64,000 nucleotides of DNA from Raoultibacter phocaeensis (GCF_901411515.1 NZ_CABDUX010000001.1:1736001-1800000); one strand, 5' to 3'. Shown: positions 9,823 through 35,818, counted from the first letter of the stretch. Program-made: numbers and translations. The notes: generated from the letters alone by a model not told the origin.

Positions 9823-11328
9823 ATGTTACGCAACGTGTGCAACGTGAGAGGCGATTGGGCGATGTCGCGTTTGGGTCACAAAAAACTCGAGTCGAATGAA
9901 GGCGAAGCCGGTAAGAGAAGCCAAGAGTTGGCTGCGGGAAAACCAATTTTTTACCGCATGCTTCTTATTATGCTCGGATTCGGGTTGTTTCGCGGATGGA
10001 GCGTCATCGGTGGCTCTCCAACGCTTTTCGTTCCTTCGGGCAGCATTGCTGTTTTCGCTGAAGCGAATGCGGGGCTTTGGGAGGACATCGTGTATGCCGT
10101 AATTCTTGTGGCGATCGGTGTCGCGGCTCAGAAATCAGCTCGGTTCAGTCGTGAGAAGTTGATGGTCGTCAGTTGTACGGTAGTGTGTCTGGGGACGGCG
10201 TTGTTCGTTTTCTCGTACGTTACCGACGATGCCCCGCTTCTTTTGCCGATGGCAGGAAGGGTGCTGTTCGCGGCTGCTGCATGCATTGCGATGCTTTGGG
10301 GCGAGCAGCTCTGCTATGTGGGAATCAAGGAATCCCTGATTTGCATTTCAGGAGCGTACGCGTTTTCGTATGTCATGGCTCTTGCGGGGACGGGTTTCTC
10401 GAAGGAAGCAGTTGCCGTTTTGCAAGTTGCACTTCCTGTAGCATCGCTCGCGCTATGGTTTTTGGTGCGAAAATCGTACCCTCGCGAACGGCTCGTGGCT
10501 ATCGAAAGCGGGCGGGATGGTTCTTTGCGTGCAGCACCGTACCGTGTGTTTTTGGGAATAGGTATTTTTGGAGCGATCCTGTTGTTGGCGAACGGTCTGT
10601 CGGAGGGAAAGACGTCGGTCCCAGACGAATTGCTCACGCTTGTGGTTGGTCTGGCAACCTCTCTCGTTATACTCGGCATTGCACGTCTCTATCGACATCC
10701 TATCGATTTTACGCTTGTGTTCCGCTTGATGCTGCCTATTATCGTTGTCTGCATATTCCTCGTCTTTTTCATCGAAGCCGACCAGCAACCGTACGAAGTA
10801 GCTTTCATCGGTTTCAGCTGGACGTTTTTTATCGTTTTCGCCTGGGAGCTTTGGCGGATCGCTGCTTCTCGAACGGCTTTGTCACCTCTTGCCGTTTTTT
10901 CTTTTGGATCCGCTTTCCTCTCAGTGAGCACGCTTATAGGGAGTGGGATTCAGTTGATTGCTGGGGTAGCGGGTGCGAGCAGTCTCGTCGTCGTTGCCGT
11001 CATCTGCATCGTCTCGGTGCTCGTTTCGTCTTTCCTCCTCAACGATCAGAAAGTTCGCGAAATCGTTCAGGGAAAAAGCGCGTTTCTTGATAGAGACGAT
11101 GAATCCGCATGTCGGCTCTGCGTTGATAAGGCGTCTGCGACAATCAAGCTCACTGAACGCGAGCAGGAGATCGCGTTGCGGGTTTTGCAGGGGAAGGATA
11201 ACGCACTCGTGGCCTCAGAGCTATTTATAACGACCGCAACCCTCTATACTCATTTGAGGAACATCTACAAGAAAGCAGATGTGCATAGCAAGCAAGAGTT
11301 CATTGCGTTTCTTCGGTCGTTCGCGTGA
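9823..11328 (+). CDS. Membrane-embedded LuxR-family transcriptional regulator
   Basis: The 501-residue protein has about twelve hydrophobic helices (residues about 40-415) followed by a C-terminal LuxR helix-turn-helix (LTEREQEIALRVLQGKDNAL, then a TATLYTHLRNIYKK recognition helix). Regulators that combine a transporter-like membrane half with a LuxR output domain are expanded in Eggerthellaceae and usually sit next to flavoprotein reductase genes, as here. A role sensing the acceptor or signal for the adjacent reductase is inferred. The ATG at 9862 has the better ribosome-binding site (GAGAGGCG) and is an alternative start giving 488 residues. Confidence 0.88.
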   Translation: MLRNVCNVRGDWAMSRLGHKKLESNEGEAGKRSQELAAGKPIFYRMLLIMLGFGLFRGWSVIGGSPTLFVPSGSIAVFAEANAGLWEDIVYAVILVAIGVAAQKSARFSREKLMVVSCTVVCLGTALFVFSYVTDDAPLLLPMAGRVLFAAAACIAMLWGEQLCYVGIKESLICISGAYAFSYVMALAGTGFSKEAVAVLQVALPVASLALWFLVRKSYPRERLVAIESGRDGSLRAAPYRVFLGIGIFGAILLLANGLSEGKTSVPDELLTLVVGLATSLVILGIARLYRHPIDFTLVFRLMLPIIVVCIFLVFFIEADQQPYEVAFIGFSWTFFIVFAWELWRIAASRTALSPLAVFSFGSAFLSVSTLIGSGIQLIAGVAGASSLVVVAVICIVSVLVSSFLLNDQKVREIVQGKSAFLDRDDESACRLCVDKASATIKLTEREQEIALRVLQGKDNALVASELFITTATLYTHLRNIYKKADVHSKQEFIAFLRSFA

Positions 11329-11758: not shown

Positions 11759-11796
11759 ATAGTCGTATGACAAAAAGTCGTGCGACAATGTGTTAT
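11759..11796 (+). promoter_or_regulatory. Promoter of the nrfD-gntR-SPFH operon with two near-palindromic operators
   Basis: Two 16-bp sites are seen: ATAGTCGTATGACAAA (11759-11774) and AAAGTCGTGCGACAAT (11774-11789). Both fit ATTGTCG-N2-CGACAAT imperfectly. A possible promoter is ATGACA (11767-11772), 18-base spacer, TGTTAT (11791-11796); the second site fills the spacer. The same motif occurs at 14170-14205, flanking the GntR gene on the other side. Confidence 0.55.
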
Positions 11797-12746
11797 TCTA
11801 TGCTCGGCAGAACCTGGGGATTGCCGAGTGGAAGATCCGACGCATTTTGAGCCTGTTGATCGTTGCATACCTGTTTTTGGGCGGAGCGGGGGCCGGGGCC
11901 TTTGCGGTTCTCGCCTGCATCGATGCTCGATTCTTTGGCATTCGCGGGTTGTCTTGGATTCCCTCGCATACAGGATCGGTCGAAAAACGGTATCTGTCGC
12001 TTCTTGTGAAGAGGGGGTACGTCGTTTCGTTTGCGGCTTTGGCGCTCGGCGCAGTCTGTCTGCTTGCTGATCTAGGGCGCCCGGAAATAGCGTACATGCT
12101 CTTCACGCAACCGACGTTTTCGTATATCAGCGTGGGAACGTACTCGCTTGCGGCCCTCATGCTCTGTGCACTGTATTTTGTGATAATCGGGCAGTTTGCG
12201 TTGCCTCGTTTTCTTAATCGCGCAAAGCCTGCTATGCTCCTGATCGGCTTTGTTTCGGCTTTGTCCGTGATGACGTATACCGGCGTGTTCTTGCAGTCGA
12301 TGCGATCGATTGCGCTGTGGAATTCGCCGTGGCTGATCGTGCTCTTTGTTCTATCCGCCTTGTCGACGGGCATCGCGCTTGTGCTGTTGTGCTCAGGTGG
12401 GCTCTGCCTCAAGCGCATGGGGTCTGCCTTATCAAAACGATTAGCGCAGGTTGATCTGGTTGTTATCATCCTTGAGATTGTCGCTTGCCTTGCGTATCTG
12501 GTTTCGGTTGCGGATACCGAGCTCGGAGCGAAGTCGGTGGAGCGTCTGCTCGTCGGCGATACCGCCTTGGTTTTCGTGGGCGGTTTCATGTTGTGCGGGC
12601 TGGTGACACCCGGCATCATGGATGCGATTTCTATCAAGCGGCAACACGATGAACGACTCGATGCAGCGTTGGCTTGCCTGGTGCTCGTCGGCGGGTTTTG
12701 CTTGAGGCTCGGCCTGTTCGAAGCGAGAATACACAGCGGCACATGA
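11790..12746 (+). CDS. NrfD/PsrC-family membrane subunit (quinone-interacting)
   Basis: The 318-residue protein has about eight hydrophobic helices and the family signature YLFLGGAGAGAFAV near the start, shared with the protein at 34838. NrfD-type subunits anchor respiratory iron-sulfur and molybdenum subunits and exchange electrons with menaquinol. Here it precedes a GntR gene and an SPFH gene, and the matching molybdoenzyme and ferredoxin subunits follow at 14347 and 16821. The reading frame opens with a GTG at 11790 that lacks a ribosome-binding site and overlaps the proposed -10; a TTG at 11847, just before the first helix, is an alternative. Confidence 0.78.
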   Translation: MLFYARQNLGIAEWKIRRILSLLIVAYLFLGGAGAGAFAVLACIDARFFGIRGLSWIPSHTGSVEKRYLSLLVKRGYVVSFAALALGAVCLLADLGRPEIAYMLFTQPTFSYISVGTYSLAALMLCALYFVIIGQFALPRFLNRAKPAMLLIGFVSALSVMTYTGVFLQSMRSIALWNSPWLIVLFVLSALSTGIALVLLCSGGLCLKRMGSALSKRLAQVDLVVIILEIVACLAYLVSVADTELGAKSVERLLVGDTALVFVGGFMLCGLVTPGIMDAISIKRQHDERLDAALACLVLVGGFCLRLGLFEARIHSGT

Positions 12747-12756
12747 ATGAGGAAGT

Positions 12757-13167
12757 ATGACAGCGAAACCGATACCGTCTTTCGAGATCGACGAATCCAG
12801 CGATTTGCCGCTGTGGGTTCGTCTGCGCGACAGGCTCGTGTACCTGATCAATGCAGGCTACTACAAGCCGGGCGATCAATTGCCTACCGTTCGCAAGTTC
12901 GCAGCCGAATTGTGCATAAGCTACAACACCGTCAGCAAAGCATATGTTGCGCTTGAGCGGGAAGGCTATATCGTAACGACGCAGGGCAGGGGAGCCTTCG
13001 TTAGCGAGCCGGATTCCGTATCGGATGCCCCCGACGTCAATGCGATGGTGGAGGATTTTGTAAACAACTGTTTGGAAAAGGGTATGACGTACGATGACAT
13101 TCCAAAGCACGTCAACAAGTCCATTCGGAAGCTAAAGAGGGAACATGAAAAGAAGCAAGGGAAGTAA
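12757..13167 (+). CDS. GntR-family regulator, short YtrA-like type (cluster 1)
   Basis: The 136-residue protein is a compact GntR regulator: a winged helix (LPLWVRLRDRLVYLI, PGDQLPTVRKFAAEL, YNTVSKAYVALEREGYI) and a short helical tail instead of a large ligand-binding domain. It closely resembles the regulator at 29340. GAGGAAG precedes the ATG. It follows the NrfD gene by 10 bases and overlaps the SPFH gene by 23 bases, so the three are probably one operon. The likely binding sites are the 16-bp near-palindromes at 11759-11789 and 14170-14205. The signal sensed is unknown; the tight coupling suggests the SPFH protein may take part. Confidence 0.88.
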   Translation: MTAKPIPSFEIDESSDLPLWVRLRDRLVYLINAGYYKPGDQLPTVRKFAAELCISYNTVSKAYVALEREGYIVTTQGRGAFVSEPDSVSDAPDVNAMVEDFVNNCLEKGMTYDDIPKHVNKSIRKLKREHEKKQGK

Positions 13168-14125
13168 GGTCGGCGCAGCGGAGGCATCGAGAAAACGCGA
13201 TACCGCTCGTCGTATCGAAATGGAGTTCGGCGTAGCAGCGGAAGCGTACCGCTCCGATCCGAGCAAGCGCGCGACTCGCAACGGCGCACTCGCGCTGCAG
13301 ATCGCATTGGCGGTAGCGGTTTTCGGCGCGGTCTTGCTGGTATTTTACCTGGCTGCTTCCGAAATCGGACTCGTAGCGGTCTGTGTCGCATTTCTAGCAT
13401 TTTTAGCGGCGCTCACGTCGGTTCACGTTGCGCTCGAATGGGAGCGTGTCGTCATCCTGCGCTTCGGGCGGTTCGCGCGTGTTGCGGGTCCGGGCGTGTT
13501 CTTCACCGTTCCGCTTATCGAGTACTGCTCGCTTCGGGTCGATCAGCGTATCATGATCACGCCGTTCGGGGCCGAGGAAACGCTTACTTCCGATCTGGTC
13601 CCCCTCGATGTCGATGCGGTCTTGTCGTGGATGATCTGGAATCCCGAACGGGCATGCACGGAGATCGAGGACTGTTATTTTGCGGTGGCTTTGGCCGCCC
13701 AGACCGCATTGCGCGATGCCATCGGGCGAGCGCCCATCTCCGAGGTAGTCGTCCGAAGAAACCAGCTCGATCACGAATTGCGATCGGCTATCGAAGGGAA
13801 GGTTTCGGATTGGGGCGTCACCGTCATTTCCGTTGAAGTGCGTGATATCATCGTGCCGAGCGAACTGCAAGACTCCTTGTCGCTCGAAGCACAGGCCGAG
13901 CGGCGTCGAAACTCGAGGATCATGCTCATGGAGGCCGAGAAGGACATCTCCGAATTGCTTTCAGAGGTTTCTGACCGGTACCGCGATGACGAAGTGGCGC
14001 TCGAGCTGAGGAAGATGCATTTGATCCACGAGGGGATTCATGAGAATGCGGGTGCCGTCGTCGTGCCCAGTTCGTATACGGAGGGCTTCGCGCCTTCGCA
14101 AGGGGAGGGACACGAGCACGCATAG
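13145..14125 (+). CDS. SPFH/stomatin-like membrane protein (cluster 1)
   Basis: The 326-residue protein has an N-terminal cytosolic stretch, one or two hydrophobic segments (about residues 55-98), then a band-7 domain beginning VALEWERVVILRFGRF and VAGPGVFFTVPLIEY, and a charged helical region. Stomatin-like proteins oligomerise on the membrane and organise complexes or proteolysis. It shares clear stretches with the protein at 29738 (TSDLVPLDVDAVL versus TSDLVPVDVDAVL). Its start lies inside the GntR gene (AGAGGG precedes the ATG), a strong sign of coupled function. No NfeD-like or protease partner is nearby, unlike many slipin operons. Confidence 0.88.
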   Translation: MKRSKGSKVGAAEASRKRDTARRIEMEFGVAAEAYRSDPSKRATRNGALALQIALAVAVFGAVLLVFYLAASEIGLVAVCVAFLAFLAALTSVHVALEWERVVILRFGRFARVAGPGVFFTVPLIEYCSLRVDQRIMITPFGAEETLTSDLVPLDVDAVLSWMIWNPERACTEIEDCYFAVALAAQTALRDAIGRAPISEVVVRRNQLDHELRSAIEGKVSDWGVTVISVEVRDIIVPSELQDSLSLEAQAERRRNSRIMLMEAEKDISELLSEVSDRYRDDEVALELRKMHLIHEGIHENAGAVVVPSSYTEGFAPSQGEGHEHA

Positions 14126-14169
14126 CCGGGTATCCTATTAGCCGCAAAATAGAATAATGACAATCGGAA

Positions 14170-14215
14170 ATTGTCGCACAACAATCTTGAATGTCGTGCG
14201 ACAATCCTGTATAAC
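14170..14215 (+). promoter_or_regulatory. Promoter of the molybdoenzyme operon with two near-palindromic operators
   Basis: Sites ATTGTCGCACAACAAT (14170-14185) and AATGTCGTGCGACAAT (14190-14205) match the motif upstream of the nrfD-gntR operon, and a GACAAT half-site lies at 14159-14164. The promoter reads TTGAAT (14187-14192), a 17-base spacer, TATAAC (14210-14215). The second site sits inside the spacer, as in the nrfD promoter, so bound regulator would compete with RNA polymerase. Confidence 0.65.
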
Positions 14216-14346
14216 GGTATGTGGGGAATTCAGCTGATTCCGAAGCTACGGTATGACGCGTAAGGGAGGCACCGGTCTGTCTCGTGACCAACGGGGTGGA
14301 GCAATCGTGCTATGCGTTCATGCCTCATGACGAGAGGAGAGGAATC

Positions 14347-16362
14347 ATGGCTGGAAACGAGCCGTCCACGCTCACAAGACGAACCTTCCTGAAAACTACG
14401 GCCTTCGCGGCGGGTACTGCGTCGCTCGCAACGCTTGCAGGCTGCAGCCAACCGGCATCGGAGGGCGAAGCCCCAAAAGATGATGCACCTGTTCAAGTTG
14501 CGGAAGAGACGTACTTCCAAAGCTGTATGGGCAATTGTTCGGGATGGGGTTGCCCCTGCTACGTGCACGTCCGCGAGGGCAAGATCGCAAACATCACCCG
14601 TGCGAAGCTGAAGTGCCCCGACGGAAGCGATAGCCCCTATCAGGAAACATGTCTGAAGGGATACGCCAACATCGAGCGCATGTACTCGCCGACGCGCGTA
14701 CTGTACCCCATGAAACGCGCAGGCGAGCGAGGCGCAGGTGAATGGGAGCGCATCTCGTGGGACGATGCCGTAAGCGAGATCACGACGAAGTGGAAAGAAC
14801 TGCAGGAGCAGTACGGTCCCGAGGCCGTGGCCTTCATGAGCGGTTCCGGCTCCGGCATGGCGACCATCTCTTACACGGGACGCCTCCAGGCGCTCATGGG
14901 CGCTATGTCCATCGCTCCGTGTTACGACAACACGGGCATGAACGTGCAGATGAACCATGGCGGTTTGGGTGCTTATACCATCGGGCACAACGAACACCGC
15001 GATATGGTGAACGCGAACAACCTGTTCATCTGGGGAACCAATCCCACTGAGTCCAACATCGTAGATTATCACCTGGTGTCTCAGGCGAAAGAAAACGGTG
15101 CCAAGGTCATCTGCATCGACCCCATTTTCACCACCTCTGCCGCCAAGGCCGACCTGTACGTGCCCATCCGTCCCGCTACCGATGGACTTCTGGCTGCCGG
15201 CATGGCCCTCATCTCCATCCGCGACGGGCACGAGGACGTTGCCCACTTGCAGACCATGACGGTCGCCCCCTTCCTGGTGAAGGATTCCGACGGATTGTAT
15301 CTGCGCCTTTCCGACCTCGGCAAAGCAGAGCCCCTGAGCGAGGATGACCGTATCCTTGTCATGGACGGCGGCGAGCCCGTGGCTTTCGACGCCGCCGCAA
15401 ATCCCGAAATCCGCGGCAGCTTCGAGGTTGAAGGCGTTGCGGTCAAGCCGGCCTACCAGATTCTGCTCGATCGTCTGAACGAGTGGGATTTGGACACCAT
15501 TGCAGAGATGACCGACGTACCGCTGGAGACCATCGAAGAGCTGGCCGCCCTCTGGAATTCCGGCCTCTCCTATATTTTCACCGGCTTCGGACCCGACCAC
15601 TACGCAAACGGCCAATGCGGCTACGACGGCATGTTCGCTCTCATGGACATTACGGGCCAGGAGGCCAAGCACGGTGCCGGCTGTTCGTGCACCGATTTCA
15701 GCGCCCCCAATACGCCGGGAATCGTGAACACCGCTACCGCCGATCTTGCCGGGGTTGCTGCTCCGGGTCGCACCATCCATGCCCCTCATTTCCATCAGCT
15801 TATGGAGGATGGCGAGTTGGCCGGCATGACGGCACCGAAAGCTGCCTACATCTACATCTGCAATCCCATCACCAACGAACCGGATCGTCAGAAATGGCTG
15901 AAATCGTTCGACACGATGGAGATGGTGGTCGTTTCCGACATGTTCATGTCCGAAGCCGCCCAGTACGCCGATTACGTGCTGCCGGTCGCTTTCCTCTACG
16001 AGCGCGACGATTTGTCCTCCACCTCCAATCCCTTCGTCAAGTACACCCAAAAGGCCGTCGAGCCTGCGGGCGAGGCTATGGGCGACTTCGAGATCATCAC
16101 CGCGCTGGGCAAAGCCATGGGCTTTGAAGAGTACTTTACGCAGGATCTCACCACGTTTTTGGCTTCCTGCGTGACCAACGATGCTGCTGCAGCCGTCGGC
16201 TTGAGCTGGGAAGCGCTTCAGGAGCAGCACGCGATCTGGACCTATCCCGAAGAACCCCAAGTGGTTGGTTTGACGGACATTATTTTGAGCGCCACTGGCC
16301 GCTTCGAGTTCTATCACGAGGGAATCCAGCCATGGCAAACGTGGGGCAGGAATGGGATATGA
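14347..16362 (+). CDS. Molybdopterin-dependent oxidoreductase, catalytic subunit (DMSO reductase family), 5' part of a frameshifted gene
   Basis: The 671-residue product starts with a Tat signal (LTRRTFLKTTAFAAG ... LAGC), so the enzyme acts outside the membrane. A cysteine set for one [4Fe-4S] cluster follows (CMGNCSGWGC, then ETCLKGYANI), then bis-MGD-binding domains (FIWGTNPTESN, and ADYVLPVAFLYERDD near the end). The frame stops early at 16362, while the missing C-terminal cofactor domain continues in another frame from about 16332. One extra G in the GGGG at 16343-16346 would join both halves into 821 residues, normal for the family. GAGAGGAGAGG precedes the ATG. The substrate (S-oxide, N-oxide or other acceptor) is unknown. 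Confidence 0.85.
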   Translation: MAGNEPSTLTRRTFLKTTAFAAGTASLATLAGCSQPASEGEAPKDDAPVQVAEETYFQSCMGNCSGWGCPCYVHVREGKIANITRAKLKCPDGSDSPYQETCLKGYANIERMYSPTRVLYPMKRAGERGAGEWERISWDDAVSEITTKWKELQEQYGPEAVAFMSGSGSGMATISYTGRLQALMGAMSIAPCYDNTGMNVQMNHGGLGAYTIGHNEHRDMVNANNLFIWGTNPTESNIVDYHLVSQAKENGAKVICIDPIFTTSAAKADLYVPIRPATDGLLAAGMALISIRDGHEDVAHLQTMTVAPFLVKDSDGLYLRLSDLGKAEPLSEDDRILVMDGGEPVAFDAAANPEIRGSFEVEGVAVKPAYQILLDRLNEWDLDTIAEMTDVPLETIEELAALWNSGLSYIFTGFGPDHYANGQCGYDGMFALMDITGQEAKHGAGCSCTDFSAPNTPGIVNTATADLAGVAAPGRTIHAPHFHQLMEDGELAGMTAPKAAYIYICNPITNEPDRQKWLKSFDTMEMVVVSDMFMSEAAQYADYVLPVAFLYERDDLSSTSNPFVKYTQKAVEPAGEAMGDFEIITALGKAMGFEEYFTQDLTTFLASCVTNDAAAAVGLSWEALQEQHAIWTYPEEPQVVGLTDIILSATGRFEFYHEGIQPWQTWGRNGI

Positions 16363-16811
16363 TGAAGGAATCCTGCTGGTTCTGGGAGCCGCCCATCGAG
16401 GCATGGCCCGAGACGATCGGCGGCTTCGAGGCCGTGGAAGAAGCGGAAAAATACCCGCTGCTGTTCATCTCCGAACGCTGCAAGTTCAAGACCCACACCA
16501 TGTTCAACAACTCGTCGATGATCCTCGAGTTGGATTCCGAACCCTACGTCAAGGTGAATCCGAAAGACGCCGAGGCCTACGGCGTAACCGAAGGCGATAC
16601 CGTGCGCATCGAAAACGATCGCGGCTATGTGGTCATCAAGGTGGTTCTGAATGCAGGTGTCCGACCGGGCATGCTGGTCATCGATCACGGATGGGAACGC
16701 GACGGTTATATCGACGGCCACTATTCCGATCTGTCTACCTATGAAACGTGGCCTCGCTTCGAGCAGGACAACTGGTTCGACTGCCTGGTTCAAATGGAAA
16801 AGGTTCAGTAG
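16332..16811 (+). CDS. Molybdopterin oxidoreductase, C-terminal cofactor-binding domain, 3' part of a frameshifted gene
   Basis: This 159-residue frame continues the enzyme at 14347. It has the molybdopterin-dinucleotide-binding beta barrel (HTMFNNSSMILELDSEPYVK, DAEAYGVTEGDTVRI, GMLVIDHGWE), which closes the active site and is never a free protein in this family. It overlaps the upstream frame by 31 bases in the -1 register. The ATG at 16332 has no good ribosome-binding site, so it is better read as part of one broken or mis-sequenced gene than as an independent start. The ferredoxin subunit follows 9 bases later, so the operon order is normal. Confidence 0.75.
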   Translation: MANVGQEWDMMKESCWFWEPPIEAWPETIGGFEAVEEAEKYPLLFISERCKFKTHTMFNNSSMILELDSEPYVKVNPKDAEAYGVTEGDTVRIENDRGYVVIKVVLNAGVRPGMLVIDHGWERDGYIDGHYSDLSTYETWPRFEQDNWFDCLVQMEKVQ

Positions 16812-16820
16812 GGGGTTATC

Positions 16821-17438
16821 ATGCAATACGGAATGGTTATCGATCTTCAAAGATGCATGGGCTGCCAAACCTGCGCGACCTCGTGCAAGCTCGCCAACAA
16901 CCTGCCGTCGGGCAACTGGTGGAACACGGTACGCACCGAGGGCGGTGAAACTATCGATACGGCGTCGGGCGATTATCCGAACTGCAAACTGCAGCACTAT
17001 CCCATCGCCTGCCAGCATTGCAAGGAGCCTGCATGCGTTGCGGTGTGCCCCACGGGTGCAACATATCGCGACGAGGAGACGGGCATCGTTATGCAGGATC
17101 CCGAAACCTGCATCGGCTGCAAGTCGTGCATCGAGGCATGTCCCTACGCCGTGCGCGTGTACAATGACGGCGAACCCGCCTATGCGCTCGACTTTGCAGT
17201 CGGCCGCGCTGACGCGCCGGTGCATATTGCCAATACGGTGGAGAAGTGCACCTTGTGCAAGAATCTCATCGACGCCGGTGAAGAGCCCATGTGCGTGCAA
17301 GCCTGTGTGGGATACGCCCGCTTCTTCGGTGATCTGGACGATCTCGCCTCCGAGGTGGCAAAGCTCGTTTCTGATCGCGAGGCGATACAGCTTATGCCTG
17401 AGCAAGGTACGAATCCGTCGGTGTACTACGTGAAGTAA
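16821..17438 (+). CDS. Four-cluster ferredoxin subunit of the molybdoenzyme (DmsB-like)
   Basis: The 205-residue protein carries four [4Fe-4S] cysteine sets: CMGCQTCATSCK, CQHCKEPACVAVCP, CIGCKSCIEACP and CTLCKNLIDAGEEP with CVQAC. This is the DmsB/NrfC/PsrB electron-transfer subunit that wires a quinol-oxidising NrfD subunit to the molybdenum subunit. It has no signal peptide and would be exported with its Tat-signalled partner. GGGGGTTATC precedes the ATG, 9 bases after the catalytic gene. The corresponding subunit of cluster 2 (34120) has its own Tat signal. Confidence 0.93.
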   Translation: MQYGMVIDLQRCMGCQTCATSCKLANNLPSGNWWNTVRTEGGETIDTASGDYPNCKLQHYPIACQHCKEPACVAVCPTGATYRDEETGIVMQDPETCIGCKSCIEACPYAVRVYNDGEPAYALDFAVGRADAPVHIANTVEKCTLCKNLIDAGEEPMCVQACVGYARFFGDLDDLASEVAKLVSDREAIQLMPEQGTNPSVYYVK

Positions 17439-17446
17439 CGCATTTC

Positions 17447-17478
17447 GGGCTTCCCGCGAAGAAGCGGGAAGCCCTTTT
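17447..17478 (+). terminator. Terminator or attenuator between the ferredoxin subunit and the membrane cytochrome gene
   Basis: GGGCTTCCCGC (17447-17457) pairs with GCGGGAAGCCC (17464-17474), followed by TTTT. The next gene starts only 29 bases on, so partial read-through is likely and would set its level lower. Confidence 0.75.
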
Positions 17479-17506
17479 GAAGTCTGCATATAGCGAAAGG
17501 AATCCC

Positions 17507-18208
17507 ATGAGCTTCGTTCTCGTTCTCGTATGCACGACTCTTGCGATATGGCTGCTGCGCGCTCCTTTGGCGAAGCATCCGATGGTGTTTTACGCGCTCG
17601 GCCTGCTGCTTACCGTATTGTACGTTTCGAACATGTTCGTCACGTACCCCGAGTTGATGCGCCGCGGCCTGTTCTTGCTTATGCAGAAATGCACGCTTTC
17701 GCTCGCCGTGTTCACGGTGGTCATGTTCATCGGTGTGTTCCGGAAGGATTCTGTCGTGAGTTTAGGCTTGCGCCCCGTGCGAGCCGAGCTTTCGATTCTC
17801 GCATGCATCCTCGCGTTGGGACATATGGTGATGTACGTGGTGTCGTTTGCACCCCGCCTGCTGAACGGCAGTGCGCTCGATGGGGGCTTTCTCGTGTTCT
17901 TTGCGACGGCGCTCGTGCTCCTCGTACTGCTTCTGGTTTTAGGCGTCACGTCGTTCAGGAAGGTCAAACGCAGAATGGATGCAAATCTATGGAAGGCCGT
18001 GCAAAAGGGAGCGTACGCGTTTTTCGGTTTGATATACGTACACCTTGTGAGCATTCTCCTGCCTTCGGCGCTTCACCAGGGGATAACGGCGCGCGTAAGC
18101 ATTGCCGTGTATACCGTTCTTTTCGGGGCATACGCGGTGCTGCGAATCCGTCGAGCGTTTTTGGATCGAAAGGGCGAGCAGGCGGAGCTTTCTTCGGCCG
18201 CTTCGTGA
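17507..18208 (+). CDS. Ferric-reductase-like transmembrane protein (MsrQ/YedZ-like cytochrome b)
   Basis: The 233-residue protein has about six hydrophobic helices. Histidines in ALGHMVMYVVSF and in LIYVHLVSILLP lie in two helices, as for haem ligands in ferric-reductase-like domains, and WKAVQKGAYAFFGLIYVH resembles the MsrQ pattern. Such proteins pass electrons from quinol or flavin across the membrane. Its position after the molybdoenzyme and ferredoxin genes suggests an additional or alternative electron entry to that enzyme. AAAGGAATCCC precedes the ATG at 17507. Haem binding is inferred from the helices, not proven. Confidence 0.7.
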   Translation: MSFVLVLVCTTLAIWLLRAPLAKHPMVFYALGLLLTVLYVSNMFVTYPELMRRGLFLLMQKCTLSLAVFTVVMFIGVFRKDSVVSLGLRPVRAELSILACILALGHMVMYVVSFAPRLLNGSALDGGFLVFFATALVLLVLLLVLGVTSFRKVKRRMDANLWKAVQKGAYAFFGLIYVHLVSILLPSALHQGITARVSIAVYTVLFGAYAVLRIRRAFLDRKGEQAELSSAAS

Positions 18209-28435: not shown

Positions 28436-28741
28436 ATGGCTACTACGAAGCTTGTCTCTAATGTCGATGAAGACGTCAAAGAACGTGCAGCTCGCCTCTA
28501 CGAATCTCTCGGTATGACCTTGAGCGGGGCCGTCAATGTGTTTCTTCGGCAATCCATACGTGAGGGGGGTATGCCGTTTCGTCCCACAACCGTTCCTGGC
28601 GGGGGAGTTGCAAAAGCAATGCCTATGGATTCTGACGGCTATCCAGTGCTCGGTATCGACTGGGATGATCCCTGCATTCGCTACCCTAAAATTCAAAACG
28701 GGGTCGTGATGCTCCCTTCCGAGCGGGATGACGGTGAGTAA
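28436..28741 (+). CDS. RelB/DinJ-family antitoxin
   Basis: The 101-residue protein has the DinJ-type ribbon-helix-helix N-terminus (NVDEDVKERAARLYESLG, then MTLSGAVNVFLRQSI), which binds DNA and neutralises a partner toxin. The C-terminal half (about residues 60-101) is acidic and would wrap the toxin. AAAAGGAGG lies six bases before the ATG. The toxin gene overlaps its end by 14 bases, the usual coupling in type II modules. It is longer than many DinJ proteins. Confidence 0.88.
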   Translation: MATTKLVSNVDEDVKERAARLYESLGMTLSGAVNVFLRQSIREGGMPFRPTTVPGGGVAKAMPMDSDGYPVLGIDWDDPCIRYPKIQNGVVMLPSERDDGE

Positions 28742-29090
28742 TGTGCGAGATCCAATGGCTTTCGAGGTGTGGTGGGTTCCGTTTGCCTTTCTCGATCGCC
28801 CGGATCACGTAAAGAATCGTCCGGCGATCATTCTCGATTGGCAAGAGGAACTGCGCCTTGCGCTCGTAACGAAAGTTACGAGCAATGTTGAGCGCGTTGA
28901 AAGCGGCTACGTATTGCTGCGCGATTGGCAGGAGGCGGGGTTGGAAAAGCCTTCCGCAGCTCGTTGCTCGCAGGTGCTGGCTATCCCTCAGAGCGTTTTT
29001 CTCGATGACGACCCCGTAGGTCGCCTCTCGCATTTCGATGCGTTCCGCATCGCCGAAGCAATCGCGTGGCTGCATCCGGGACTGCTATAG
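28728..29090 (+). CDS. PemK/MazF-like toxin (growth inhibitor)
   Basis: The 120-residue protein resembles PemK/MazF toxins, typically sequence-specific endoribonucleases. Visible points are DHVKNRPAIILDW (the KxRPavil strand), LRLALVTKVTS and the hydrophobic SVFLDDDPVGRLS segment. It lies directly after, and overlapping, a DinJ-type antitoxin gene. The family call is moderate because the usual catalytic arginine and serine positions are only partly recognisable. An ATG nine codons downstream (MAFEVWWVPF) is an alternative start. Confidence 0.72.
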   Translation: MTVSNVRDPMAFEVWWVPFAFLDRPDHVKNRPAIILDWQEELRLALVTKVTSNVERVESGYVLLRDWQEAGLEKPSAARCSQVLAIPQSVFLDDDPVGRLSHFDAFRIAEAIAWLHPGLL

Positions 29091-29304: not shown

Positions 29305-29339
29305 GGATGCAAGATACTTTCAAGAGTGAGGTCTGTCGC

Positions 29340-29726
29340 TTGTTCGATACGCTGCGAATCAACGAGAAATCGGGAGTGCCGGTCTGGGTCCAAATCCGGA
29401 ACCACATGGTATCTCTCATCAAGATGGAGCGCATCAAATCGGGCGATATTCTTCCGACCGTTCGTGAATTAGCTGCTCAGCTAGGAGTTAATTACAATAC
29501 GATCCACAAGGTCTATCAGGATCTCGAGGCAGACGGACTCATTTGCTCGAGCAGGGGGAAGCGGTCGTTCGTGGCCGATGTGAACACCAACGCTTTGCAG
29601 CTCCCTGAATCTCCGGTCGATCTGGTGATCGATCAGCTGGTACGGGTTGCCGAAGAAGCAGGCGTTACCAAGCAGGATGTGCTGATCAGGGTCGAAGAGC
29701 GTTTTTCAGAACAAGCGGATAGCTAG
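29340..29726 (+). CDS. GntR-family regulator, short YtrA-like type (cluster 2)
   Basis: The 128-residue protein has the same plan as the regulator at 12757: winged helix (VPVWVQIRNHMVSLI, SGDILPTVRELAAQL, YNTIHKVYQDLEADGLI) plus a short C-terminal helical tail. I chose the TTG at 29340 because GTGAGG lies eight bases upstream and the N-terminus then matches the length of the cluster 1 protein. The ATG at 29307 is in frame but lacks a ribosome-binding site and abuts a candidate operator. It precedes an SPFH gene by 11 bases. Its likely targets are the AT-rich half-sites at 29290-29304 and 30849-30897. Confidence 0.85.
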   Translation: MFDTLRINEKSGVPVWVQIRNHMVSLIKMERIKSGDILPTVRELAAQLGVNYNTIHKVYQDLEADGLICSSRGKRSFVADVNTNALQLPESPVDLVIDQLVRVAEEAGVTKQDVLIRVEERFSEQADS

Positions 29727-29737
29727 GGGGTATTATC

Positions 29738-30661
29738 ATGGCGAGAACCATACCTGACGAACCCGAATTCAATGCCGAGCCCGAGATTACCGACGAAGAT
29801 GGCATGTTCGAGGACACGGCGACGAGCCGCTTTGGCGCGGTGCTCCTCCGGTGGCTTCTCGCGGTAGGCGTTGCGGTGCTGTTCTTCGCTGCGGCGTGGT
29901 ACTTCGCTTCGATTCCGCTTGTCGTGCTCGGTATTGCGGCAGGCATCGTTTTGTTCAGCTGCGCTCATGTCGTGCTCGAGTGGGAGCGGACTGTCGTGCT
30001 CAGGTTCGGCAAATTCAACCGCGTAGCAGGTCCCGGACTCATCTTCATGATCCCCTTCGTTGAGTATTCTGCTGCGACGGTTGATTTGCGTATGAGGTCG
30101 ACTGCGTTCAAGGCCGAGCACGTGCTCACTTCCGACCTCGTGCCGGTCGATGTCGATGCGGTGCTGTTTTGGATGGTGTGGGATGCGGGCAAGGCATGTT
30201 CGGAGATGCGCAATTACGAACGGCTTGTGTTCTGGATAGCTCAGACAACGCTGCGCGACGTCATGGGTGGCGTCGGTATCGCGCAGATGGGCGTGCGCCG
30301 CACACAGATCGACAAGGAGATCGCCGACATTCTCGAACGGAAAACAAGCGAATGGGGGATAACTATCGTCTCGGTGGAGATTAGGGATATCGAAATTCCC
30401 GAAGAGTTGCAGGAATCGCTCTCGGCCGAAGCGCGGGCGGAGCGGGAATACAATGCGCGCATCATTCTCGCCGAGGTCGAGAAGGAAGTGTCCGAAATGT
30501 TTGTGGATGCCGCCCGAACGTACAAGGAAGAGGATGCTGCCTTGCAGCTGCGCGCCATGAGTTTCGTGTCTGAAAGCGTGAAGGACAAAGGGGGGCTCGT
30601 AGTGATCCCAAGCGCCCTATCCGAAGCGTTCGAGGGTTTGGAAAAGATCACGAAACGCTAG
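29738..30661 (+). CDS. SPFH/stomatin-like membrane protein (cluster 2)
   Basis: The 307-residue protein has an acidic N-terminus, two adjacent hydrophobic segments (residues about 32-80), a band-7 domain (VVLEWERTVVLRFGKF, VAGPGLIFMIPFVEY, SVEIRDIEIPEELQ) and a charged helical end. It is clearly paralogous to the protein at 13145. A ribosome-binding site (TAGGGGGTATTATC) precedes the ATG. It lies 11 bases after a GntR gene, repeating the cluster 1 arrangement, and a terminator follows. A scaffold or signalling role for the regulator is inferred only from this recurrence. Confidence 0.88.
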   Translation: MARTIPDEPEFNAEPEITDEDGMFEDTATSRFGAVLLRWLLAVGVAVLFFAAAWYFASIPLVVLGIAAGIVLFSCAHVVLEWERTVVLRFGKFNRVAGPGLIFMIPFVEYSAATVDLRMRSTAFKAEHVLTSDLVPVDVDAVLFWMVWDAGKACSEMRNYERLVFWIAQTTLRDVMGGVGIAQMGVRRTQIDKEIADILERKTSEWGITIVSVEIRDIEIPEELQESLSAEARAEREYNARIILAEVEKEVSEMFVDAARTYKEEDAALQLRAMSFVSESVKDKGGLVVIPSALSEAFEGLEKITKR

Positions 30662-34837: not shown

Positions 34838-35818
34838 ATGGCTGAATTGCAATCGGTTTGGGGGTGGCAGCCAGCCCTGTATTTGTTTCTGGGAGGCATG
34901 GGCGCAGGCGCGTTCGTGACGGCTGCCGTGCTGTATTTCTACGATCGAAAGAACAACGAGAAAACGATTTGCATAGCAGCGTGGGCGGCAACTATCAGTT
35001 TGGTCGTCGGGTTGCTGCTGCTTTTGTCCGAGTTGACGAATCCGCTGCGCGGCATGCTTTTATGGCAGAGCTTCAGCAACGGATCGTCGTGGATGACATT
35101 CGGCGCGTGGGCGGTGTTTGCGGCCGTTATCGTGTTCGGGCTCATGGCTCTGCTGACAACGGGTAAATTTGTAGCGGTGCTCACCAAAAAATGGAAGAAG
35201 GCTTCGAAAAGGCTGAAAACAGCGCGCACCGTCCTTGCGGTTTTGGGTATCGTGCTGGGTCTTGTCGTGGCGGTGTACACAGGCGTGCTTCTCATGTCGG
35301 CGCCGGGGGTACCTTTGTGGAATACGCTTCTGCTGCCCTGTCTGTTTACGGTTTCGGCACTCGATACGGGCGTTGCGCTCGTCGAAATCATCGCTGTTGC
35401 GCTCGGCCGCAAGCGTGCGGGAACCCCTCAATCGCATAAAGCCCATACACTGCTTAAGCGGTGCGTGATCGTTTTGGTGGTTGCTGAGCTCGTTGTGCTG
35501 TTCGTGCTTTTGAACACCATGCTCGCCGGTGGTGCCGCAAGCGCTGCGGTTGCGGCTGCAGGCAGTGCATCGGCCGAACTGCTCATCGGGGGAGCGCTTG
35601 CCCCGTACTTCTGGGGGCTTGTGGTGGCATGCGGATTGGCGCTTCCTTTGATTGCGGCTGTCGTCGGTTTGGCGATGCGTTCGAAAAGCTCCGATAGCCT
35701 TGCCGTTGTCGGTGCGGCTGGTGCCCTTCTGGGCGGGTGCGCCTTGCGGTTTTTGATTCTTATGGCAGGATTGCATGCGGATGTGGTGGCAAACGCGGTG
35801 GCGACGCTGGTGCAGTAG
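34838..35818 (+). CDS. NrfD/PsrC-family membrane subunit (cluster 2)
   Basis: The 326-residue protein has eight or nine hydrophobic helices and the signature YLFLGGMGAGAFVTAAVL near the N-terminus, also present in the protein at 11790. Conserved family residues are seen in LLLSELTNPLRGMLLW and TGVLLMSAPGVPLWNT. With the exported ferredoxin subunit it forms a quinol:acceptor electron conduit of the NrfCD/PsrBC type. ACGAGGAGGTAATCG precedes the ATG. The split flavoprotein genes follow directly, making the flavoprotein, rhodanese or the haem/Mo proteins possible terminal partners. Confidence 0.92.
   Translation: MAELQSVWGWQPALYLFLGGMGAGAFVTAAVLYFYDRKNNEKTICIAAWAATISLVVGLLLLLSELTNPLRGMLLWQSFSNGSSWMTFGAWAVFAAVIVFGLMALLTTGKFVAVLTKKWKKASKRLKTARTVLAVLGIVLGLVVAVYTGVLLMSAPGVPLWNTLLLPCLFTVSALDTGVALVEIIAVALGRKRAGTPQSHKAHTLLKRCVIVLVVAELVVLFVLLNTMLAGGAASAAVAAAGSASAELLIGGALAPYFWGLVVACGLALPLIAAVVGLAMRSKSSDSLAVVGAAGALLGGCALRFLILMAGLHADVVANAVATLVQ

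Follow-up and report, generated by a model that had tools for sequence, protein, structure and literature searches.

The genes for an NrfD-like integral membrane protein, a short GntR regulator and a stomatin-like SPFH protein of Raoultibacter phocaeensis probably form a three-gene regulatory module, which switches one neighbouring anaerobic-respiration operon. The arrangement was recognised in a stretch of 64,000 nucleotides (hereafter the window). It is real and much larger than a preliminary description of this DNA had noted, with 12 copies in the genome, a dedicated NrfD protein as third member and accompanying candidate operators. The module is present in most of the sampled genomes of the Eggerthellaceae.

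All genes of the first module and of the adjoining operon lie on the plus strand of the window. The module NrfD protein is encoded at 11847..12746 (PF03916, E 4.9e-23); its ORF is open from a GTG at 11790, and the TTG at 11847 is the likelier start because that GTG falls inside the promoter/operator. After 10 bp follows the gene of a YtrA-type GntR regulator of 136 aa (12757..13167; PF00392, 1.9e-14), which is overlapped by 23 bp by the gene of the 326-aa SPFH protein (13145..14125; PF01145, 2.8e-28). From about 14284 onwards, the molybdoenzyme operon encodes the large subunit of a molybdopterin oxidoreductase (14284..16811; PF00384 and PF01568), its 4Fe-4S subunit (16821..17438; PF13247) and a separate, ferric-reductase-like membrane subunit (17477..18208; PF01794), so that an anchor other than the module NrfD is available to the enzyme. 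The gene content and tight spacing given in the preliminary description were all found at this locus. The large subunit is read as two ORFs (14284-16362 and 16332-16811): relative to Raoultibacter timonensis, the alignment shows one base missing (window 16332-16362, CAGCC-ATGG versus CAGCCTATGG), which is either a natural frameshift or a sequencing error. The module itself contains no Fe-S gene, and the neighbouring operons have one.

The structural model of the GntR protein (pLDDT 86) consists of a winged helix followed only by helices 92-107 and 114-134; hence, the 136-aa protein is modelled without a large effector domain and with a short C-terminal part of two helices. This model matched the structure 3neu (Z 14.4, 116 residues, rmsd 6.0) and, in the DNA-binding domain, YtrA 6sbs (Z 13.6, 79 residues, rmsd 1.5). 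Both 3neu and 4ham match the GntR protein over its full length. Its gene partners are membrane proteins, with no ABC transporter at the module. In the model of the SPFH protein (pLDDT 84.9) an N-terminal helical hairpin at residues 46-92 (helices 46-71 and 76-92) precedes a stomatin-type domain, and this domain is predicted to be cytoplasmic, behind the membrane hairpin. The protein matched human stomatin with an E value of 1e-30, and its model matched the stomatin of P. horikoshii over 104 residues (Z 17.6, rmsd 1.2). Assignment to HflK or HflC of the FtsH system was rejected, the NCBIfam scores being 55 and 44 bits against cut-offs of 159 and 134 and stomatin being closer.

A duplicated GntR-SPFH pair had been reported directly before another respiratory cluster, each pair beside an NrfD-type system. 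A second pair is indeed present on the plus strand, formed by a YtrA-type GntR gene at about 29307..29726 (PF00392) and a stomatin-like SPFH gene at 29738..30661 (PF01145, E 1.8e-36), and the cluster after it encodes an Oxidored_molyb enzyme (31148) together with a 4Fe-4S protein and has an NrfD gene at 34838..35818 (plus strand). The two GntR proteins of the window share 32% identity and the two SPFH proteins 41%, which indicates distant paralogues with no recent duplication. A simple recent duplication was ruled out both by these values and by the membership of the pairs in the 12-member set. Both clusters contain NrfD, as had been claimed, but the NrfD of the second one is of the enzyme type, grouping with enzyme NrfDs outside the module clade. 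A RelB/PemK-type toxin-antitoxin pair (28436-29090) immediately precedes the second pair.

The genome (3.86 Mb, 99.2% complete, Eggerthellaceae) encodes 14 SPFH and 15 GntR proteins, and 12 of each are neighbours, with the GntR gene first in 11 pairs and the SPFH gene first in one. An NrfD paralogue directly adjoins 10 of the 12 pairs and the other two have NrfD nearby. Ten pairs likewise have a PF00384 molybdopterin gene within several kb; of the remaining two, one precedes an Oxidored_molyb enzyme and the other is divergent to an NrfD-containing cluster. Chance would place a GntR gene beside 12 of the 14 SPFH genes with a probability of ~2e-23, given 15 GntR genes and an assumed total of about 3,400 genes. 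Among the unpaired short GntR genes, one (L186:4614-6127) adjoins a DUF1648/DUF5808 protein and another (L187:4962-6935) an ABC transporter, which is the ordinary YtrA arrangement. The same 3.86-Mb genome gives 91 molybdopterin oxidoreductase matches.

Linkage in relatives was analysed with 110 SPFH loci covering 41 related genomes, scored against a profile built from the 12 module SPFH proteins of the genome. The scores were bimodal and empty in between, 78 loci falling at 264-520 bits and 31 at 50-138 bits. A GntR gene was present within 1 kb at 78/78 loci of the high-scoring subfamily (68 upstream, 10 downstream; one of the 78 GntR matches, at L079, is weak, with 36 bits) and at 0/31 of the other SPFH loci. 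Chance adjacency is ruled out by this difference together with the probability given above. NrfD was found within 1.9 kb in 65/78 modules and was absent at that distance in 13/78. Matches to the oxidoreductase profile within 4.5 kb were strong in 47/78 modules and reached 60/78 with a laxer score, at which not all of them are molybdoenzymes since the profile also contains TAT flavoproteins. In a further set of nine genomes, 28 of 29 SPFH matches had a GntR neighbour, two of the matches (in G025 and G030) having already been in the earlier sample and the single exception being cut at a contig end. Thus, the conserved linkage on which the preliminary description depended is borne out: GntR-SPFH adjacency is essentially absolute in the Eggerthellaceae and neighbouring Coriobacteriia. 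This conservation indicates that the pairing is very probably functional. One genome from a different family of the class shows the full NrfD-GntR-SPFH-molybdoenzyme order, and a relative carries six module copies on one contig. Within an even sample of the phylum Actinomycetota, SPFH proteins at the subfamily level (at least 351 bits) occurred only in the class Coriobacteriia, and the rest of the sample had generic SPFH proteins of up to 222 bits. A single-sequence SPFH scan of genome contigs reached R. timonensis alone, the nearest named relative, whose SPFH protein is 90% identical to that of the window.

The partners have also diverged together. Among the 12 paralogues the GntR and SPFH distance matrices were correlated (Mantel r 0.53, p 0.0005), and so were those of SPFH and NrfD (p 0.003), the GntR-NrfD correlation being weaker (p 0.03). 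When partners were permuted within genomes, for nine genomes, the GntR-SPFH correlation was maintained (r 0.47, p 0.0002). This mirror-tree signal reflects co-inheritance of the pairs and not physical contact. In the NrfD tree, 87 of 88 module NrfDs were placed with two others in one group (support 0.85), whereas enzyme NrfDs, including those of neighbouring operons, several of which encode an NrfD of their own of ~410 aa, fell outside it. The window module NrfD carries the quinone-site pattern Y8, D75, S92, Y144-T145, S170, E210 and R287, in which D75, Y144, S170 and E210 are kept in 87/87 module NrfDs and R287 in 85/85; Y8 and T145 are conserved as well. The published NrfD-family table lists Tyr16, Asp65, Ser81, Tyr147, Thr148, Ser173, Glu212 and Arg293 for FqoC, the first five of which are quinone-site residues (PMC8076601), and the module residues are spaced much like these, the equivalence being by spacing and not by structure. 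No matching chain was found when the PDB was searched with the module NrfD, either as single sequence or as profile, so the residues were mapped from their spacing with the published table as reference.

Candidate operators were identified at both promoters of the first module. The one at the module promoter (11762..11788, plus strand) reads GTCGTATGACA-aaaa-GTCGTGCGACAA and comprises two dyads at a distance of 15 bp, and the one at the molybdoenzyme promoter (14167..14206, plus strand) reads TTGTCGCACAACAA-TCTTGA-ATGTCGTGCGACAA; the putative GntR sites at these window promoters have the form GTCGTGCGAC. The two sites are identical at 13 of 14 positions, a match equalled in 3% of other module promoters. 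A -35 TTGAAT and a -10 TATAAC separated by 17 bp were recognised by eye in the molybdoenzyme promoter, and the promoter scan did not list them. Both the R. timonensis orthologue (L120) and the relatives L113, L115, L116 and L117 keep the molybdoenzyme operator, and other copies have the same layout in different letters (TAATCATATGACAA-TTCTTGA-TTGTCATATGATTA, TTGTACTAGGACAA-GTCTTGA-TTATCCTAGTACAA and CAATCCTAAGATTA-GTATAG-CAATCCTAGGATTG). Tandem 14-bp palindromes around a -35 TTGA, with a score of at least 17, were found in 16/75 module-downstream regions, against 2/857 random and 6/615 AT-rich control windows, and some of the weaker matches are GC-rich chance dyads. In 9 of the 18 loci with a clear operator, the promoter of the module itself also has a matching site, for which no more than 10% of the other module promoters show an equally good match. 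At the loci lacking a clear tandem operator the sites may have diverged or lie elsewhere, or regulation may be of another kind.

The operator class tracks the helix-turn-helix of the GntR protein: TTGTCG occurs with VRK[FY]AA...TVSKAY, TTGTCA with VR[GA]LAS...YNTVNKAY and the CC types with FNTVNK. Within operator classes the GntR proteins are on average 69% identical, between classes 47%, and this covariation is partly due to common ancestry. Over the whole window GTCGTGCGACA with two mismatches occurred 26 times against 32.5 expected, which is no excess; hence, the analysis was restricted to paired dyads at promoters. A first within-operon comparison of 9-mers was weak for several loci. The candidate layout fits the binding mode of the YtrA protein of Sulfolobus. 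This repressor of its own operon and of a further gene for a membrane protein recognises a semi-palindromic core of 14 bp, which lies inside a 32-bp inverted repeat (PMC6746942). Two further conserved and enriched elements flank the operators (e.g. window 14145-14240, L017, L021 and L024): AAATAGAATAA upstream, present in 12/75 module-downstream regions against 2/1902 controls, and downstream a dyad like GGATTTGGCCAATTCC (GGCCAATTC in 8/75 against 5/1902). These are possibly sites of a common regulator.

The regulatory reading of the module may be set out as follows. A GntR dimer would repress both the module promoter and the oxidoreductase promoter, a step for which the sequence, with its paired candidate operators, gives good support. 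The SPFH protein might then release the GntR protein or hold it at the membrane, and the NrfD protein might supply the signal by sensing the quinone redox state, an acceptor, or the docking of the enzyme Fe-S subunit, so that each module copy would serve a single respiratory enzyme as an insulated circuit. Because a large effector domain is missing from the GntR protein, and its gene always has an SPFH gene next to it, the simplest signal route would run through the SPFH protein. The full scheme, in which a quinone-sensing NrfD acts through a stomatin-like oligomer as relay on a GntR protein that is released or captured, with up to a dozen such circuits and private operators in the Eggerthellaceae, is plausible, and we put it forward tentatively. 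The preliminary description had left the role of the SPFH protein between signalling and assembly. We favour signalling because the DNA-binding protein is the most strictly kept partner, the NrfD clade is separate and matching operators occur at enzyme promoters. That the SPFH protein itself transmits the signal is inferred, and small YtrA-type proteins may bind a ligand directly.

Such a ligand is central to the strongest competing explanation, which we regard as rather unlikely. According to it a small ligand acts directly on the GntR protein, a conventional local repressor of the operon, and the SPFH and NrfD proteins are co-transcribed respiratory machinery for assembly, quality control or membrane organisation. 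The membrane proteins controlled by YtrA-type regulators are usually encoded in the same operon as the regulator (PMC6746942), SPFH proteins are membrane organisers and protease modulators (with weak HflK/C matches in the present case), and all three module genes adjoin oxidoreductases. However, the SPFH gene is tied to GntR in 78/78 loci and to an enzyme in 47-60/78, and the adjacency survives reversed gene order, in 10 SPFH-GntR cases. The genome has 91 molybdopterin-family matches for 12 modules, which indicates that the SPFH protein is no general assembly factor, and the co-divergence of GntR and SPFH is not required by mere co-transcription.

It is improbable that the module NrfD is instead the working quinol dehydrogenase membrane subunit of the enzyme, with the SPFH protein clustering the complexes and the GntR protein setting expression only. 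The conserved quinone-site residues would fit such a subunit, NrfD normally is one (PMC8076601), and some loci show no other NrfD within the stretch examined; yet several neighbouring operons carry their own NrfD, the window operon has the membrane subunit at 17477-18208, and the module NrfDs form a separate clade that travels with the GntR-SPFH pair, often in a unit that has another promoter between it and the enzyme. The position of the operators bears on a third explanation, a GntR protein acting as activator or dual regulator with an SPFH scaffold that recruits promoter DNA to the membrane. Operators lie on both sides of the -35, so the upstream one could assist the polymerase, and the lineage is rich in membrane-bound activators of the LuxR type (PMC9734109), but the second palindrome is placed between the -35 and the -10, the classical position for repression, and the characterised YtrA proteins repress. 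We consider this explanation very improbable.

To our knowledge no system has been described that joins NrfD, GntR and SPFH. The open-licence full-text literature contained no paper on NrfD with SPFH or on slipin with GntR, and for stomatin with GntR it named stomatin in passing only; the claim of the preliminary description that no system of this kind is described held in this literature, and a subscription paper may have been missed. Singly, the parts are ordinary members of their families; in combination they make up, in our view, a new kind of system, since neither the set of partners nor the route proposed for the signal can be read as a variant of anything described. The module GntR shares size, fold and DNA-binding domain with the YtrA subfamily (Bacillus YtrA, Sulfolobus YtrA 6sbs, PmtR and Rv1152), as well as the 14-bp palindromic core and membrane-protein gene partners. 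It differs in that these partners are NrfD and a stomatin-like SPFH protein and not an ABC transporter, and in having 12 paralogues in the genome, with differing operators and an anaerobic respiration operon as target. The module SPFH protein has the SPFH fold, predicted hairpin and coiled C-terminal helix of the stomatin/slipin proteins (human stomatin, PH1511 and the NfeD-partnered QmcA), but no NfeD gene was noticed in the module, a GntR gene is the neighbour in every case, and the profile scores of 264-520 bits are set apart from the 50-138 bits of other SPFH proteins of the same genomes. The module NrfD has the Pfam family and the quinone-site pattern in common with the NrfD/PsrC subunits (FqoC, PsrC and TtrC), whereas it belongs to a separate clade and is coupled to a regulator and not to a catalytic subunit gene.

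Members of the Eggerthellaceae, gut bacteria like Eggerthella and Raoultibacter, encode very many reductases, and some convert drugs and compounds from the diet. For the choice among these enzymes the logic described so far is a family of membrane-spanning LuxR regulators of the same lineage, the Coriobacteriia, with many paralogues that control individual catechol dehydroxylases (PMC9734109). Each of these is one polypeptide of 10-12 TM helices and a LuxR helix-turn-helix, whereas in the module the proposed sensor, relay and DNA-binding part are three proteins. If the regulatory reading is correct, the module would add to this a second logic, so far undescribed, for switching respiratory enzymes separately; stomatin-like proteins, of whose roles in bacteria little is known, would gain a clear and testable function in transcription control, and an NrfD protein would act as sensor, a role beyond that of enzyme subunit. 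Genetic tools exist for E. lenta (PMC9734109). The window also encodes, at 9823-11328, a LuxR/GerE regulator whose N-terminus is hydrophobic over a long stretch; this protein resembles the Coriobacteriia membrane LuxR family, and its gene adjoins a TAT flavoprotein gene.
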